From: Marinitoga piezophila KA3
GTDB lineage: Bacteria > Thermotogota > Thermotogae > Petrotogales > Petrotogaceae
NCBI RefSeq assembly: GCF_000255135.1
Contig: NC_016751.1
Location: 1,736,001 to 1,800,000 of the forward strand
Direction of reading: 5' to 3'
DNA: 64,000 bases
Both the position numbers and the translations under genes were made by a program. The number at the start of each line of letters is the position of its first letter. Positions within the stretch are counted from its first letter, which is position 1. The notes below the pieces were generated by a model. That model searched no databases. It had not been told where the DNA came from and worked only from the letters and a program-made list of their open reading frames with translations. Of this stretch, positions 18,849 through 40,584 are shown one piece after another.

Positions 18849-19802
18849 TTAATTAAAGTATTCTCTTACAGCAAAAGATGCTGCAATAGCACCATCAGCT
18901 GCTGCTGTGATAATCTGTCTTAATTCCTTTTGAATAACATCTCCTGCAGCAAATACACCTTTCACATTTGTTTCTCTGTGTTCATCTACAGGGATATATC
19001 CATAATCATCAAGTTCTATTTTTCCTTTAAATAATTCTGTTACAGGAGTAAGTCCTACAAAAACGAATACTCCGTCTACATCGAAGTTTGTAATTTCACC
19101 AGTTTCTCTGTTTTCAAGTACAAGCTGAGTTACTTTCTTATCACCTTTGATTTCCTTTACTACAGAATTCCAGATGAATTTAATATTTTCTGTATTAAAT
19201 GCTTTGTCCTGATATCTTTTATCAGCTCTTAACTTATCTCTTCTATGAATAATATAAACTTCTTTTGCTATTTTTGAAAGATAAAGAGCTTCTTCAACAG
19301 CTGTATTGCCACCGCCAATAACAGCAACTTTCTGGTTTTTGAAGAAATGTCCATCGCAGGTAGCACAGTATGAAACACCTCTACCAGCAAATTCCATTTC
19401 ACCAGGAACACCTAATTTTCTTGGTGTTGCACCTGTTGCGATAACAACTGTTTTTGCTTTTACAATACTTCCATTATCAAGTGATATTATCTTTTCATCT
19501 TTACTGAAATCAACATTAATAACTTCACCATCGTAAAATTCTACGCCAAATTCTCTTGCGTGTTCTCCAAGTTTTGTTGCTAATTCTTCTCCTGTAATAG
19601 ATTTAAATCCAGGATAGTTTTCAACATATTCTGTTAAGTTAATCTGACCGCCTTCTAAATCTTTTTCTATAATTAATGGCTGGATTCCGCCCTGAACAGC
19701 ATAAATCCCTGCTGCAACACCTGCTGGACCACCGCCAATAATTACCATATCATAATATTCTTTTAAATCATGTTTTTTTGATGATCCAAGATCAAAGAAC
19801 AT
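18849..19802 (-). CDS. trxB: Thioredoxin reductase
   Basis: This FAD- and NAD(P)H-dependent flavoenzyme reduces thioredoxin-type proteins. 317 residues, standard length. FAD motif GGGPAGVAAG (22-31), redox-active C146-A-T-C149, second nucleotide motif GGGNTAVEEAL, and the FAD-binding AAGDV near the C-terminus are all visible. A GGAGGGATAA precedes the ATG and overlaps the end of the preceding pdo gene (3-bp gap), so the two are coupled. The natural partner is the glutaredoxin-like disulfide oxidoreductase encoded immediately upstream, as in other thermophiles. Confidence 0.96.
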   Translation of the reverse strand: MFFDLGSSKKHDLKEYYDMVIIGGGPAGVAAGIYAVQGGIQPLIIEKDLEGGQINLTEYVENYPGFKSITGEELATKLGEHAREFGVEFYDGEVINVDFSKDEKIISLDNGSIVKAKTVVIATGATPRKLGVPGEMEFAGRGVSYCATCDGHFFKNQKVAVIGGGNTAVEEALYLSKIAKEVYIIHRRDKLRADKRYQDKAFNTENIKFIWNSVVKEIKGDKKVTQLVLENRETGEITNFDVDGVFVFVGLTPVTELFKGKIELDDYGYIPVDEHRETNVKGVFAAGDVIQKELRQIITAAADGAIAASFAVREYFN

Positions 19803-19805
19803 GGC

Positions 19806-20486
19806 TTATCCCTCCACAGCTTTTAATACTTCTTCAACGAAGTTTGGTTCAGGATATGCACCAATAAATTCACCTTTAACTACCCATTCACCATTTTCAA
19901 ATGCTTCAATAACTGTGTGTGGTACAGAACTTACATTGTGTTTCATTGAAATTTCGTAAAATTCGTTAGCTTCTACCATTTCACCGTTTATATTTTCATT
20001 AATCATTGCAGCCATCTGTGCTGATAAAACAGCTCTTGGACAGTATGGACATGTTGGAGTTACAAATACTCTTAATCTTATTTTTTTGTTTATACCCTTT
20101 AATTTTTCAATTGTGTCTTCTGAGAAATCTACTTCTTCGCCATTTTTGGACATGAGAATTAAATCCTGTAATAATGTGCTGAATTCATGTCCTGAAGGAA
20201 TTCCGTAAAATCTTACACCTAAATCTGAACCATTTGATGCAAGAATAACTGTTGCTGGAGCTAATGTTTTATCAATTTCATATTCTTCTGCAAGTGGAGA
20301 GTCAATATTTTCAACTTCTAAATCAACATTATCTACACCTTCTGATAATTCTGTGTATAATTGTTTTGTTACTTCACAGTATTCGCAATCATCTTTTTCG
20401 AATAAAATTATTTTTACTCTACCTTTCATTTCCCCTAATAAATCCTTTACCTGTTCTAATGTTTTGTCATCTAATAATCTTTCCAT
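19806..20486 (-). CDS. Protein disulfide oxidoreductase, tandem glutaredoxin-like domains
   Basis: 226 residues with two thioredoxin folds. The N-terminal unit carries C34-E-Y-C37 and the C-terminal unit C146-P-Y-C149, followed by the cis-proline region SSVPHTVIEA. This is the PDO family of thermophilic bacteria and archaea, which shuffles or reduces protein disulfides in the cytosol and is recharged by TrxB. The C-terminal CPYC is the conserved active site. The N-terminal CEYC is less canonical. Gene order padR-pdo-trxB makes one redox operon. ATG with GGAGGTG upstream on the minus strand. Confidence 0.92.
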   Translation of the reverse strand: MERLLDDKTLEQVKDLLGEMKGRVKIILFEKDDCEYCEVTKQLYTELSEGVDNVDLEVENIDSPLAEEYEIDKTLAPATVILASNGSDLGVRFYGIPSGHEFSTLLQDLILMSKNGEEVDFSEDTIEKLKGINKKIRLRVFVTPTCPYCPRAVLSAQMAAMINENINGEMVEANEFYEISMKHNVSSVPHTVIEAFENGEWVVKGEFIGAYPEPNFVEEVLKAVEG

Positions 20487-20506: not shown

Positions 20507-20866
20507 TTATATATTTTCTTTTGCTTTATTAATAAAGTTTTTTAAAACTATTATCTGTTCTTCCATTTCAGAAATAAATCTTTTCATTCTTTCTTTTCCT
20601 TTTTCTGTCACCTTATAAATTTTTCTTGGTGGACTTGATGTTGTATCCCAATCAAACTCTATTTCGCCACGTTTTTCAAGATCTGAAAGAGCCCTGTATA
20701 CTCTTCCTTTTTGCCCAATTCCTTCTGGAATTGTTATACCCATTTCGCATAGCCTATTGGATAGTTCATAGCCATAACTGGGCTTTTCGGCTATTAATAT
20801 CAATAATAAATCGCATATTAACTTTCCGCTCTTTTGAAATATTTTACACTTATTTGCCGAATTCAT
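20507..20866 (-). CDS. PadR-family transcriptional regulator
   Basis: 119 residues. The winged-helix PadR domain spans about 12-100 (GYELSNRLCEMG, RVYRALSDLEKRGEIEFDW, RKIYKVTEKGKERM) with a short C-terminal dimerisation helix. Three cysteines (about 7, 18 and 40) lie in the N-terminal half, which might allow redox sensing given the thiol-reductase genes it precedes. That is inference. It heads the operon, 20 bp before pdo, and a strong promoter carrying a 19-bp palindrome lies upstream, consistent with autorepression. ATG with GGAGGG upstream. Confidence 0.88.
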   Translation of the reverse strand: MNSANKCKIFQKSGKLICDLLLILIAEKPSYGYELSNRLCEMGITIPEGIGQKGRVYRALSDLEKRGEIEFDWDTTSSPPRKIYKVTEKGKERMKRFISEMEEQIIVLKNFINKAKENI

Positions 20867-20918: not shown

Positions 20919-20947
20919 ATTATATACATTATGTATATATTTGTCAA
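20919..20947 (-). promoter_or_regulatory. padR operon promoter with palindrome in the spacer
   Basis: On the minus strand TTGACA (20947-20942) and TATAAT (20924-20919) are 17 bp apart, a consensus promoter. The perfect 9-bp-arm palindrome TATATACATTATGTATATA (20921-20939) fills most of the spacer and overlaps the -10. ACAT/ATGT half-sites are typical of PadR operators. Confidence 0.85.
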
Positions 20948-21000
20948 GTAAAAAATATAAAGGTTCTATTGTTATTTTTTTAAAATTTGAAGTCAAAAAA

Positions 21001-21028
21001 TTAAAGCACCCATGAAAAGGTGCTTTAA
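21001..21028 (-). terminator. Terminator after the HD-GYP gene
   Basis: TTAAAGCACC / GGTGCTTTAA arms (21001-21010, 21019-21028), followed on the minus strand by AATTTTTT. The stem includes the stop codon of the HD-GYP gene. Confidence 0.87.
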
Positions 21029-23457
21029 TCAGAAAATTTATTATATATATTATTGATTTCATCTGAGTATTGTTTAAATATCTCAAGGATTTTTGGATTA
21101 AAATCTTTTGGCGAAGTTCTATTATCACCCTCAATGATTATTTTCATCACTTTTTCGTGTGGAATAGCCGGTTTATATGGACGTTTAGAACGTAAAGCAT
21201 CGTATACATCTACAATAGATACAATCTGAGCTTCAATAGGTATTTCATCGCCTTTTAAATTATATGGATATCCTCCACCATTATATTTTTCATGGTGATA
21301 TAATGCAATTTTTAATGCAGTTTCAAAGTATGGGTCATCACCCAATAACCGTTCTGCATAAATGGTATGTTTTTTCATAATTTCATATTCTTCATCTGTT
21401 AATTTACCGGGTTTATTTAAAATTTCAAGTGGAATAAAGATTTTTCCAATATCATGTAATGTCGAAAATTCCTTTATTTCAATTATTTTGTCTTCTGGAA
21501 GATTTAATTTTTGAGCTATAAAATACGAAAGCTCTCCAACTCTATATATATGTTGTCCTGTAATATCATCATGTGCTTCTGCAATTAAAGCGAGTTTATT
21601 GGCAAAATTAAGATAGGCACTTTTAACTCTATCTATGGTATATTTTGAATTAATTACAGTTTTAGCAATATTCATTAAAGCCTGTATAATTGTTTTATCG
21701 TATTCAGTAAATGATTTAGGATTACTGGCGTCTATATCCAGTGCAAGATTAAGTATTTTTCCTTTTTCTAATTCTGAGGTTATAATCATTATTTCCTTTA
21801 TATTTTTTACAGCATTTATAAATTTATTAAATGTTTTTTCATCCATTCCTTTTTTGTCAATTTTAATTAATTCATCTGATTTAAATATTTTTATTTCATC
21901 ATTTGTTTGAACCATCCAATCTTTTTTAAGATTAAGTTGTTTTAATTTTTCTATATCATGACCTATTGCTGCAATGAAATTCCATTTATCATTTTCAGCA
22001 AGTGAAATACTTCCGTAATCACATGCATCAACAAGTTCATTGGCAAATTTTAAAAGATTTGTATAATAATTTTCAATATCCTGTGTTTCAAAATTGGAAA
22101 TCAGTTCAATCATCTTAAATAATTTTTTGTTTGTGGAATCAAGTATTTTATTTTTTTTCTCAAGTTCAAGTTTTTGCTCTACTTTATCTGTAACATCTAT
22201 ATATAAAACAAGAATTTTATCTTCACCATTTTGTTGCCTTATAGGTGTTTTGAAAACTCTGAAATAACGTATTTTTCCGTCTTTTTTCATTTTAACTTCT
22301 AAAACAGTTTTTTCAATATGATTTAATATAATCTGTATATCTTTTATAACAGCATTTTCTTTGGTTTTTTCATCAATAGTATTGCCGATAATATCGTTTA
22401 AATTTTTTCCAATAATTTCATCTTTTTCCATATTAAAAAATTCAGCAAAAGCTTTATTAGAAAAAATAATAGTTTGATCTACAGTTTTTATATAAATAGG
22501 ATTTGGTGAAAGATTAACAATTTTTTCAATTAAATCTGTAGAATTTTTTAATTCTGAAAGTGTTTTTTCGAGATCATTTAAAGCATCTGTTAATTCTGAA
22601 TTTTTTTTCTGTAATTTTCTTTTAAGTTGATTGGAATTTATATATAGCACAATAATTATAAAAATAAGTATAGTTTCTAAAATAGCAATTGCAGGAACAA
22701 GCCAGTCAGGTATTTTTTCAAGAGTTTTTGTATTAAAATATTTATCAAAAATACTATAATAGTATGAATCGGGATCTGATTTTAATTTTTTTAATAATTG
22801 ATCAAACCTCTGAAAAAATTCATCCAGACTTTTATCTTTTTTATACATCATATAAATACTTATAGGCGTAAAAATAATGGAAGTTTTTTTAATGTTATGC
22901 TTGTTCTCAAGATATAAACCAAGAAATTTTGGCATTACACCAGCATCTATTTCATGTTTTTCGAGGGCATCAAGTATTTCCATATAATCATTCATTTCAA
23001 CAAAATCTACTTTTATATTAAAAGATTTAAGAATTTCTTTTATGCCTCCAGGTCCATCGTAAAATATATCTGTTTTCATTACGCCAATTTTTTTATTTTT
23101 TAAATCAACTATATTATCGACATTTTCTTTTCCTGAAACATATATTACTCCCCAGTCGAAAAATAAAGCTTCGCTGTTAAAATTAAAGAATTTTTTTCTT
23201 TCAGGGGTTATTGCCAGGTCAGCAACAATATCAATTTCATTATTTTTAAGTTTTTCAATAAGGTTTGCCTGTGTATCAAAAACAAATTTATAGTCAACAT
23301 TTAAATCTTCAAACATATTCCGTGCTAATTCAACAAAAAAGCCTCTTTTTTCATCAAATACAATAGGTATATCTTTGTATATACCTATTTTAAGTGTTTT
23401 TGAAAAAGAAAGGGATATAGAAACGATTATAAGTACAAAAATCAAGAGCCTTTTCAT
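21025..23457 (-). CDS. Periplasmic-binding-domain PAS/HD-GYP sensor phosphodiesterase
   Basis: 810-residue membrane signalling protein. Signal peptide 1-19. A family 3 solute-binding-like domain (about 20-245, with YDGPGGIKEI). A transmembrane helix (about 256-278). A coiled linker. A PAS domain (about 305-425, NPIYIKTVDQTIIFSN). A GAF-like region (about 445-615). An HD-GYP domain (about 625-800) with STLHDIGKIFIP and HHEKYNGGGYP, keeping the HD pair and GYP. HD-GYP proteins hydrolyse cyclic di-GMP, here presumably in response to an extracytoplasmic ligand. It lies 12 bp after a GGDEF gene in the same operon. Ligand unknown. Amino acids are typical for the binding fold. Confidence 0.88.
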   Translation of the reverse strand: MKRLLIFVLIIVSISLSFSKTLKIGIYKDIPIVFDEKRGFFVELARNMFEDLNVDYKFVFDTQANLIEKLKNNEIDIVADLAITPERKKFFNFNSEALFFDWGVIYVSGKENVDNIVDLKNKKIGVMKTDIFYDGPGGIKEILKSFNIKVDFVEMNDYMEILDALEKHEIDAGVMPKFLGLYLENKHNIKKTSIIFTPISIYMMYKKDKSLDEFFQRFDQLLKKLKSDPDSYYYSIFDKYFNTKTLEKIPDWLVPAIAILETILIFIIIVLYINSNQLKRKLQKKNSELTDALNDLEKTLSELKNSTDLIEKIVNLSPNPIYIKTVDQTIIFSNKAFAEFFNMEKDEIIGKNLNDIIGNTIDEKTKENAVIKDIQIILNHIEKTVLEVKMKKDGKIRYFRVFKTPIRQQNGEDKILVLYIDVTDKVEQKLELEKKNKILDSTNKKLFKMIELISNFETQDIENYYTNLLKFANELVDACDYGSISLAENDKWNFIAAIGHDIEKLKQLNLKKDWMVQTNDEIKIFKSDELIKIDKKGMDEKTFNKFINAVKNIKEIMIITSELEKGKILNLALDIDASNPKSFTEYDKTIIQALMNIAKTVINSKYTIDRVKSAYLNFANKLALIAEAHDDITGQHIYRVGELSYFIAQKLNLPEDKIIEIKEFSTLHDIGKIFIPLEILNKPGKLTDEEYEIMKKHTIYAERLLGDDPYFETALKIALYHHEKYNGGGYPYNLKGDEIPIEAQIVSIVDVYDALRSKRPYKPAIPHEKVMKIIIEGDNRTSPKDFNPKILEIFKQYSDEINNIYNKFSD

Positions 23458-39180: not shown

Positions 39181-39220
39181 TAATCTACTATTAGTTATAA
39201 TCAATAGAAAGGAGATGAAT

Positions 39221-39907
39221 ATGGAGAATTTAGCTGTTGCTGTTCAACCAACAATAGGATATTTTGGTGCCTTTTTAGGTGGGATAATCTCATTTTTTAG
39301 TCCCTGTATATTGCCGTTAGTTCCATTATTTTTTGGAATTCTAATGCCAGATTTGAAGGATTTTAAACTTACCTTGAAACGTGGATTAGCTTTTTTTCTT
39401 GGTTTATCGATATTCTTCTCGATGCTGGGTGTTTTAGCAGGAAGTTTGGGAACTTTTATCTCAAAATATCAAGACGTCTTTAATCTGGTTGCAGGAATAT
39501 TTATTATAATAATGGGTATTTATTATCTCCTTGATAAAGAGATCTTCAAAGGATTTAAGCTGGATTTATCAAAATATAAGGGAACAACTTTTTTAGGTGC
39601 TTTTATAATGGGAATTTTAATTTCATTTATATGGATTCCATGTTCAGGACCTGTTCTCGCAGCAGTATTGACCTTTGCATCTACAACAACAAACATATTT
39701 AAAGGTGGATTTATGCTTTTCTTATATTCATTGGGGATTTCTATTCCATTTTTATTTTTCAGCGGTGTAGTAAGTAAATTATTATCCAGAATTACATTTG
39801 GGACACCAAAATGGCAAAAGATTTTAAAGGTTTCAGGGAGTTTATTATTGGTTTTAATGGGGATTCTGGTAATACTTGGAAAGTTCAATAATTTACAGGG
39901 AGTGTGA
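39221..39907 (+). CDS. ccdA: CcdA-type thiol:disulfide electron transporter
   Basis: 228-residue membrane protein with six hydrophobic spans that carries reducing equivalents from cytosolic thioredoxin to extracytoplasmic thiols. The two redox Cys are seen in FFSPCILPLVP (first span) and WIPCSGPVLAAV (fourth span). The start is the second ATG (39221), correctly spaced from AAAGGAG. The ATG at 39215 abuts it. It overlaps, or nearly so, a secreted thioredoxin-fold gene that is its likely partner. The TrxB/PDO genes at 19-20.5 kb could provide the cytosolic side. Confidence 0.92.
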   Translation: MENLAVAVQPTIGYFGAFLGGIISFFSPCILPLVPLFFGILMPDLKDFKLTLKRGLAFFLGLSIFFSMLGVLAGSLGTFISKYQDVFNLVAGIFIIIMGIYYLLDKEIFKGFKLDLSKYKGTTFLGAFIMGILISFIWIPCSGPVLAAVLTFASTTTNIFKGGFMLFLYSLGISIPFLFFSGVVSKLLSRITFGTPKWQKILKVSGSLLLVLMGILVILGKFNNLQGV

Positions 39908-39912
39908 GGATA

Positions 39913-40584
39913 ATGAAAAAAATAAGTCTTTTTATTTTATTAATAATATCAGGTGTAATTATGTATGGTTCAATCCTTCCAGATAAATTTATTGTTCATG
40001 ATTTTAATGTGGCATTGAAAATTGGTGAAATAACAGGGAAAAAGGTTATAATTATGTTTTCTTCAGGAAGTTGTTATTATTGTAATAAGTTTAAAAAAGA
40101 AACTTTATATGATGAAGAGGTACAAAAGTGGTTAAGAACTGAATATATCTTTGCAGAGATATATGCTGATAAGAAAAAGATTGCCAATTATAAAGGGAAA
40201 ACATTAAATTACAGGGATTTATTTGGAGCGTTTGGAGTAAGAGGGACACCAACATTTTTCTTCTTTGATAGCAAAGGAGAAGCAAAGGCTCAATTGCCAG
40301 GATATGTAGATCCTACAACTTTTATTTCTATCTTAAAATACTTTAAATACTCTTCAAATCACAATATAGATTATAGTACATTTGTAAAAAAGAATATAAA
40401 GGTTTCAATAGAAAAAAGAGTTTTGAACTTAACAGATGAAGAGATAAAATATTTGCTTGAAAATGATCCAAATACAGTGGAATACCAAAAAGATGATTCT
40501 TTAGATGATTTTGTAAATGTTATTGTTAAAGAAAAATCAAAGGAAATAGAAAGTAAATTTTATGTAGTAATTTATAGTAAGTAG
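39913..40584 (+). CDS. Secreted thioredoxin-fold protein
   Basis: 223 residues. Hydrophobic signal segment (residues 1-20), then a thioredoxin-like domain with CYYC (about 50-53) in MFSSGSCYYCNKFKKETL and the cis-Pro loop VRGTPTFFFFD. The FKKETLYDEEVQ pattern resembles SoxW/DsbD-gamma-like thioredoxins. The last 80 residues form a charged extension with no recognised domain. Follows ccdA by 5 bp, with GTGAGGA upstream of the ATG (a GTG at 39904 also lies in frame). Expected to reduce extracytoplasmic disulfides with electrons from CcdA. Confidence 0.85.
   Translation: MKKISLFILLIISGVIMYGSILPDKFIVHDFNVALKIGEITGKKVIIMFSSGSCYYCNKFKKETLYDEEVQKWLRTEYIFAEIYADKKKIANYKGKTLNYRDLFGAFGVRGTPTFFFFDSKGEAKAQLPGYVDPTTFISILKYFKYSSNHNIDYSTFVKKNIKVSIEKRVLNLTDEEIKYLLENDPNTVEYQKDDSLDDFVNVIVKEKSKEIESKFYVVIYSK

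Follow-up and report, generated by a model that had tools for sequence, protein, structure and literature searches.

What controls the padR-pdo-trxB operon of the Marinitoga genome studied here, and is the palindrome set within its promoter the site of that control? The window, which is the whole 64-kb stretch of DNA analysed (G000:C2:1736001-1800000, where G000 is the source genome), carries on its minus strand padR1 (20507..20866), encoding a PadR-family winged-helix protein of 119 residues with cysteines C7, C18 and C40 (PF03551, 60.6 bits with a cut-off of 27). This gene is followed on the same strand by pdo (19806..20486), for a protein disulfide oxidoreductase (PDO; TIGR02187, 236.6 bits with a cut-off of 185), and trxB (18849..19802), for a thioredoxin reductase (TrxB; TIGR01292, 397.5 bits with a cut-off of 343.45). 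The model proposed here, in which PadR1 is an autorepressor of a small thiol regulon and is released from DNA by a switch in its cysteines, is as a whole one that we favour with some reservation, and its parts carry different degrees of confidence.

A palindrome inside the padR-pdo-trxB promoter

The genes padR1 (20866-20507), pdo (20486-19806) and trxB (19802-18849) are separated by intergenic gaps of 20 and 3 bases, and they look like a single transcription unit ending at an intrinsic terminator on the minus strand (18839-18807), which has a 14-pair stem and a T-run. A terminator-like hairpin on the same strand (20999..21030, with a 13-pair stem and a T-run) ends the upstream gene, so that padR1 probably opens its own transcription unit. 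The minus-strand promoter at 20947-20919 has the form TTGACA-N17-TATAAT and matches the consensus at 12 of 12 positions, with both the −35 hexamer TTGACA (20942..20947) and the −10 hexamer TATAAT (20919..20924) invariant in all seven Marinitoga genomes. Within it lies a 19-bp palindrome (20921..20939, assigned to no strand), comprising one central base and a perfect nine-base arm on either side. The palindrome, a putative operator of PadR1, spans most of the promoter spacer and four bases of the −10 hexamer. The exact sequence TATATACANNNTGTATATA occurs once in the 64-kb window; at up to three mismatches it occurs 10 times, against 1.57 expected (100 shuffles, maximum 5).

Gene order is kept in all seven Marinitoga genomes. 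In their aligned upstream regions, 26 of the 29 columns of the −35 to −10 block are invariant and the three varying columns are exactly the palindrome centre; in the flanks of this block, 14 of 77 and 13 of 52 columns are invariant. The promoter-embedded palindrome ahead of padR-pdo-trxB, described in the first-pass annotation as occupying the spacer of TTGACA-N17-TATAAT, is real and is confirmed. The ACAT and ATGT half-sites that were read into it do not hold, as the bases beside the palindrome centre differ between species, and in six of seven Marinitoga the right half is TTGT or similar, without ATG. Because the three-base centre is variable, the half-sites are those of TATATACA-N3-TGTATATA, rather than ACAT and ATGT. 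The canonical PadR operator is an ATGT/ACAT inverted repeat with a spacer of 8-10 bases (PMC3506622); in the present palindrome, ACAT occurs without a preceding ATGT. The ATGT/ACAT motif is characteristic of the PadR members that have been studied, and not of the PadR fold.

At all 30 loci inspected, which are the best 30 of 59 pdo matches, trxB lies next to pdo, and padR adjoins them solely in the seven Marinitoga. One of these genomes (G002) has a frameshift in padR1 between codons 80 and 95 (L007 1493-1848), and the operators persist despite it. Other G002 genes (ccdA and Mrp) are also broken, which suggests that the frameshift is an assembly error.

Glutaredoxin and further candidate targets

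Exact matches to TATATACA-N3-TGTATATA were sought in 103 genomes of the class, comprising 7 Marinitoga and 96 others, with the reversed pattern as a control. The seven Marinitoga contain 15 matches and the other 96 genomes two, and the reversed control gives none. Exact operators are found at exactly two loci in each Marinitoga genome, the 15th match being an extra copy at the second locus of G003. A search for the palindrome elsewhere in the genome, which the first-pass annotation had suggested as a check, thus returned one further exact site, ahead of a glutaredoxin gene. In all seven genomes this second locus is the promoter region of the small glutaredoxin gene (grx), with the operator beginning 34-38 bases before the start of the 79-residue gene. 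Its product is a CPWC glutaredoxin of the YruB type (TIGR02196, 107.7 bits with a cut-off of 88.55). The confinement of exact sites to two loci argues for a two-operon thiol-redox regulon that comprises TrxB, PDO and glutaredoxin.

The grx promoter has features of its own. Upstream of the operator, ATGGCATAAAT is invariant in all seven Marinitoga (L033, L072, L076, L077, L079-L081); it does not clearly read as a −10 hexamer, and it matches no box known to us. Repression at grx may work differently from that at the padR promoter. In G003, the grx promoter (L077 1501-1680) contains two operators approximately 160 bases apart, around an apparent short insertion.

At up to one mismatch, the Marinitoga genomes contain 29 sites (15 exact and 14 with one mismatch), and the control pattern has 14 matches, none of them exact. 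One-mismatch sites were rejected as a regulon class, since 14 sites against 14 control matches is background. Individual inspection covered the one-mismatch sites of the operator pattern, the control matches being counted only. It placed six of the 14 sites inside genes and eight between genes, the latter at an iron-sulfur/DUF2249 gene (three), nuoE (three) and ccdA (two). Three of the seven Marinitoga were found to have the iron-sulfur gene, whose domains are Fer4, DUF1858 and DUF2249, and it is retained as a target because the one-mismatch operator is conserved, within a conserved block, in all three. In the source genome this gene is located at G000:C2:1730585-1731103 (L225), approximately 5 kb before the window.

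Two further genes are tentative members of the PadR1 regulon, on the evidence of similar sites. The ccdA promoters of G001, G006, G004 and G005 (four of seven genomes) carry operator-like sites with one to three mismatches; no such site was found in the ccdA promoter of the source genome. The NuoE-like gene (L237-L243) has a one-mismatch site 283-386 bases upstream in G000, G001 and G006, and a two-mismatch site 43-54 bases upstream in the six Marinitoga other than G000. In the window, ccdA (DsbD_TM) is followed by a thioredoxin-like gene (39215-40584).

PadR1, its cysteines and a possible thiol switch

The winged-helix domain of the PadR family is evident in PadR1 both from the Pfam score and from fold matches to many PadR structures. 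The closest solved structure is that of TM0937 (2ESH; E 1.5e-26, Foldseek identity of 46%). In the AlphaFold2 (AF2) monomer model (pLDDT 86), residues 88-118 form a long C-terminal helix of the dimerisation type, and the presumed recognition helix is composed of residues 52-65. In a survey with PadR1 as the query, at E values up to 0.001 (very distant PadRs would escape it), PadR1 is the sole PadR found in all seven Marinitoga, and this distribution, which matches that of the operator, points to PadR1 as the protein that binds it. The promoter, the operator, the genes that share it and the conservation of the cysteines are established by sequence comparison; repression and the direction of the response we infer.

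We consider it very probable that PadR1 represses this regulon via TATATACA-N3-TGTATATA. The earlier proposal of an autorepressor of the TrxB and PDO operon is supported by comparison, in which the operator is conserved and its distribution is matched by PadR1 alone among the PadRs found, and autorepression of the thiol regulon is, as far as sequences can speak to it, well supported. A PadR1 dimer would bind TATATACA-N3-TGTATATA between the −35 and −10 hexamers and exclude RNA polymerase from padR-pdo-trxB; as the operator spans the spacer and part of the −10 hexamer, a bound dimer should block the polymerase, and as padR is the first gene of the operon, the outcome would be autorepression. 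The same operator would bring the distant grx under PadR1, and in some species also the iron-sulfur/DUF1858/DUF2249 gene.

The three N-terminal cysteines that had drawn attention to the protein, C7, C18 and C40 of 119 residues, are conserved in all seven Marinitoga, that is, in six of six intact PadR1 proteins and, in the seventh (G002), before the frameshift. In the AF2 model, C7 lies in the predicted disordered N-terminus, before helix 13-27, C18 in the first helix and C40 at the end of the second helix. In an alignment of 21 PadRs, the paralog PadR2 and seven other Thermotogota PadRs have no cysteine, and three PadR1-like proteins from the same family each carry a cysteine close to the N-terminus, accompanied by a second in one of them. 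G009 and G008 each have a PadR with a single cysteine, at positions 2 and 117, and in two Caldisericota PadRs a cysteine occupies position 9. These cysteines in other PadRs, the disorder predicted around C7 and the absence of a CxxC pair count against the proposed model.

A redox or persulfide switch is suggested by three things together: the cysteines, the nature of the target genes, and the regulator whose place PadR1 seems to have taken (see below). That C7, C18 and C40 sense the thiol state is in our view a reasonably likely reading. Oxidation or persulfidation of cytosolic thiols, by disulfide stress, polysulfide from S0 or oxygen traces, would extend to at least one of C7, C18 and C40. 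The reacted PadR1 would release DNA, so that TrxB, PDO and glutaredoxin are made, and these would re-reduce PadR1.

A comparable loop is described in the archaeal Thermococcales, where the ArsR-family regulator SurR represses Pdo among others and releases DNA upon oxidation of its cysteines by S0, and where TrxR-Pdo can reduce SurR in vitro (PMC12162507, PMC7278568). There, as in the proposal for PadR1, a regulated target reduces its own regulator, and by this analogy TrxB and PDO would be the natural reductants of oxidised PadR1. However, SurR differs in its family, its CxxC switch, its archaeal host and its large energy-metabolism regulon; PadR1 has a PadR domain, and its cysteines form no CxxC. 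A second relevant system is RosR of Halobacterium, a PadR-type oxidative-stress regulator that is cysteine-free (PMC4287449, PMC9426492) and that H2O2 releases from DNA at most loci (PMC4287449). RosR is similar to PadR1 in its PadR-type winged helix, and it has a palindrome of approximately 20 bp and an oxidative-stress regulon (PMC4287449). Unlike PadR1, with its C7, C18 and C40, it has no cysteines, and it controls more than 300 genes through an unrelated operator. The first-pass view that a redox-responsive role is not usual for PadR proteins therefore stands with a caveat, RosR being already an oxidative-stress PadR, albeit a cysteine-free one.

YodB, of the MarR/DUF24 family, is a thiol repressor of the small winged-helix type whose reactive cysteine sits where a near-N-terminal helix begins (PMC8063818), and its structure (5HS7) ranks 41 among the fold matches of PadR1. 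Nevertheless, YodB has an HxlR/DUF24 domain, another operator and another cysteine pattern, and PadR1 gives no HxlR/DUF24 Pfam match at E 0.001. Thiol switches are known in the ArsR, MarR/DUF24, TrmB and CsoR families (PMC7278568, PMC8063818, PMC9426492, PMC10715087). Among the open-access papers listed, a scope outside which most subscription journals fall, no report was found of a padR-pdo-trxB operon or of a cysteine-switch PadR.

An alternative reading of the same protein, which we hold to be unlikely, is that PadR1 is a repressor that answers a small molecule (a drug, an aromatic compound or a flavin), like LmrR or PadR, and that the cysteines are structural or incidental. LmrR, itself a small PadR protein, binds drugs near the dimer interface (PMC3506622, PMC5428041), the model has low confidence around C7, and some relatives' PadRs also carry a cysteine. 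However, both exact targets of the operator code for thiol-disulfide enzymes, neither a transporter nor a catabolic gene is among them, and PadR1 has three invariant cysteines that the paralog in its own genome lacks.

It is distinctly improbable that the three cysteines instead bind an iron-sulfur cluster or a metal, so that PadR1 senses the iron-sulfur or metal state and the thiol genes are an output. Three conserved cysteines per subunit would fit such a role, as would the related palindromes that mark operons for Mrp-type 4Fe-4S ATPases and NifX, and the ferredoxin-domain gene with an operator in all three species that have it. On the other hand, no cluster motif known to us has the spacing C-x10-C-x21-C, and most PadRs at Mrp/NifX operons are without cysteine.

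Related palindromes and an apparent exchange of regulator

The wider palindrome TATATRYA-N3-TRYATATA marks DUF5320/Mrp-ATPase/NifX operons in many Thermotogota and in Caldisericota (L200-L224, L245-L252, L100-L105). Outside Marinitoga it has 28 sites, against three reversed-control matches; inside Marinitoga it is weakly enriched (27 sites against 15 control matches; in the source genome, three against five). Twenty-four of the 28 outside sites were inspected, the other four being an overlapping pair in G011 and single sites in G044 and G099. A Mrp, NifX, DUF5320 or PadR gene, recognised by six-frame sequence patterns, lies within 6 kb of 21 of them, and PadR itself is near nine of the 24. The sites without such a mark are in G033, G015 and G089: inspection by eye shows a glycine-rich gene in G033 and at the contig end in G089, and the G015 site lies inside a gene. 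The exact operator outside Marinitoga (G089, G090) precedes a glycine-rich gene. In Caldisericota, the wider palindrome is located 1-3 kb upstream of padR at all four loci found.

In five of five Marinitoga with a Mrp/NifX operon, the wider palindrome lies inside a TTGACA-N17-TATAAT promoter of that operon (exact in one, with one mismatch in four). Palindromes being inside the Mrp/NifX promoters too, an operator in the spacer seems to be a common layout for this PadR group, and TATATRYA-N3-TRYATATA is perhaps its general operator. Thermotogota PadRs of the TM0937 (2ESH) type, near related palindromes in Mrp/NifX-type operons, are mostly cysteine-free, unlike PadR1.

PadR2 was found in the five Marinitoga with a Mrp/NifX operon and is the likely regulator of that operon. 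In the PadR1-query search it was not found in G001 or G006 (99% complete drafts), two genomes that are without the Mrp/NifX operon and yet have both exact thiol operators; in the same search, weaker PadR matches (30-35% identity) are absent from G000 and G005. That PadR2 or another regulator binds the thiol operator, the targets of PadR1 being elsewhere, is very improbable. The related palindrome at the same position in the Marinitoga Mrp/NifX promoters makes cross-talk possible, but G001 and G006 keep both exact operators where neither PadR2 nor its operon was found, and PadR1 alone among the PadRs found occurs in all seven genomes, a distribution that disfavours PadR2 or any other PadR as the regulator. 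The idea that an AT-rich promoter produced the palindrome by chance deserves almost no credence: the genome is AT-rich, the operator has TATA runs and one-mismatch sites are at background level, but everything except the palindrome centre is conserved, and the two exact loci per genome, against none in the control, both precede thiol genes.

PadR1-like genes of three other genera were considered as controllers of thiol genes and rejected, having no thiol neighbours except grx in G011. In that genome, from another genus of the same family, grx is located 2 kb from the PadR1-like gene, whose product has an N-terminal cysteine (L172 4200-6925). In a tree of the 21 PadRs, a long stem (1.17) leads to PadR1, whose neighbours are weakly placed (83/75).

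A different palindrome, ATACC-N7-GGTAT, is common to pdo and grx in other genera, where it lies 28-83 bases upstream of the start codon. With up to one mismatch allowed, it is present in 19 of the 23 pdo promoters and 16 of the 17 grx promoters (L048-L070, L154-L170), with dinucleotide-shuffle expectations of 0.16 and 0.10, respectively (largest 2). It is missing at pdo of G013, G016, G012 and G054 and at grx of G012, and it is absent at both genes in all seven Marinitoga. Its form, which we take to resemble that of CsoR-family operators, suggests that it is probably a CsoR/CstR-type operator.

CsoR-family (PF02583) proteins were found in 39 of the 41 genomes searched, and none in G000 or G038. 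Those of group A have two cysteines, with a tyrosine in place of the copper histidine four residues before the second cysteine in 14 of 14 aligned (15 of the 30 retrieved loci were given for alignment, and the pattern missed one, L284). The group A proteins of the relatives thus have the two conserved cysteines, without the copper histidine, that are expected of a CstR-like protein; group A resembles CstR, and its co-occurrence with the palindrome points to a role at pdo and grx. The link is imperfect, as G012 has group A and neither operator. Group A was not found in Marinitoga. The six Marinitoga other than the source genome have two PF02583 copies each, and all 12 belong to group B.

Neither group A nor its putative operators are found where PadR1 and its operator occur, so that PadR1 probably took the place of a CstR-like regulator. 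CstR itself is a sensor of reactive sulfur species (PMC10715087). The CstR/CsoR protein is unrelated to PadR1 and has a different operator, but its proposed targets, pdo and grx, are the same two. The full proposition, that in Marinitoga PadR1, as a PadR switched by thiols or persulfide, took over pdo-trxB and grx from a CstR-like repressor, with protein, operator and promoter exchanged at both loci and the targets unchanged, is one that we advance only tentatively. To our knowledge, thiol or persulfide sensing is not known for the PadR family, which would, if the proposition is true, be extended to cysteine-based redox or sulfur sensing; the locus would also be a clean natural case of regulator replacement across a small regulon, both targets having received a new operator. 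Control of PDO-TrxB in thermophilic Thermotogota could also be tested with a single protein of 119 residues and a pair of short DNA probes.

The proteins of group B have a Cys and a His-x3-Cys, as in copper sensors, and the eight inspected second PF02583 copies from other genera also belong to this group. Several group B copies adjoin genes that resemble, by eye, copper chaperones or pumps.
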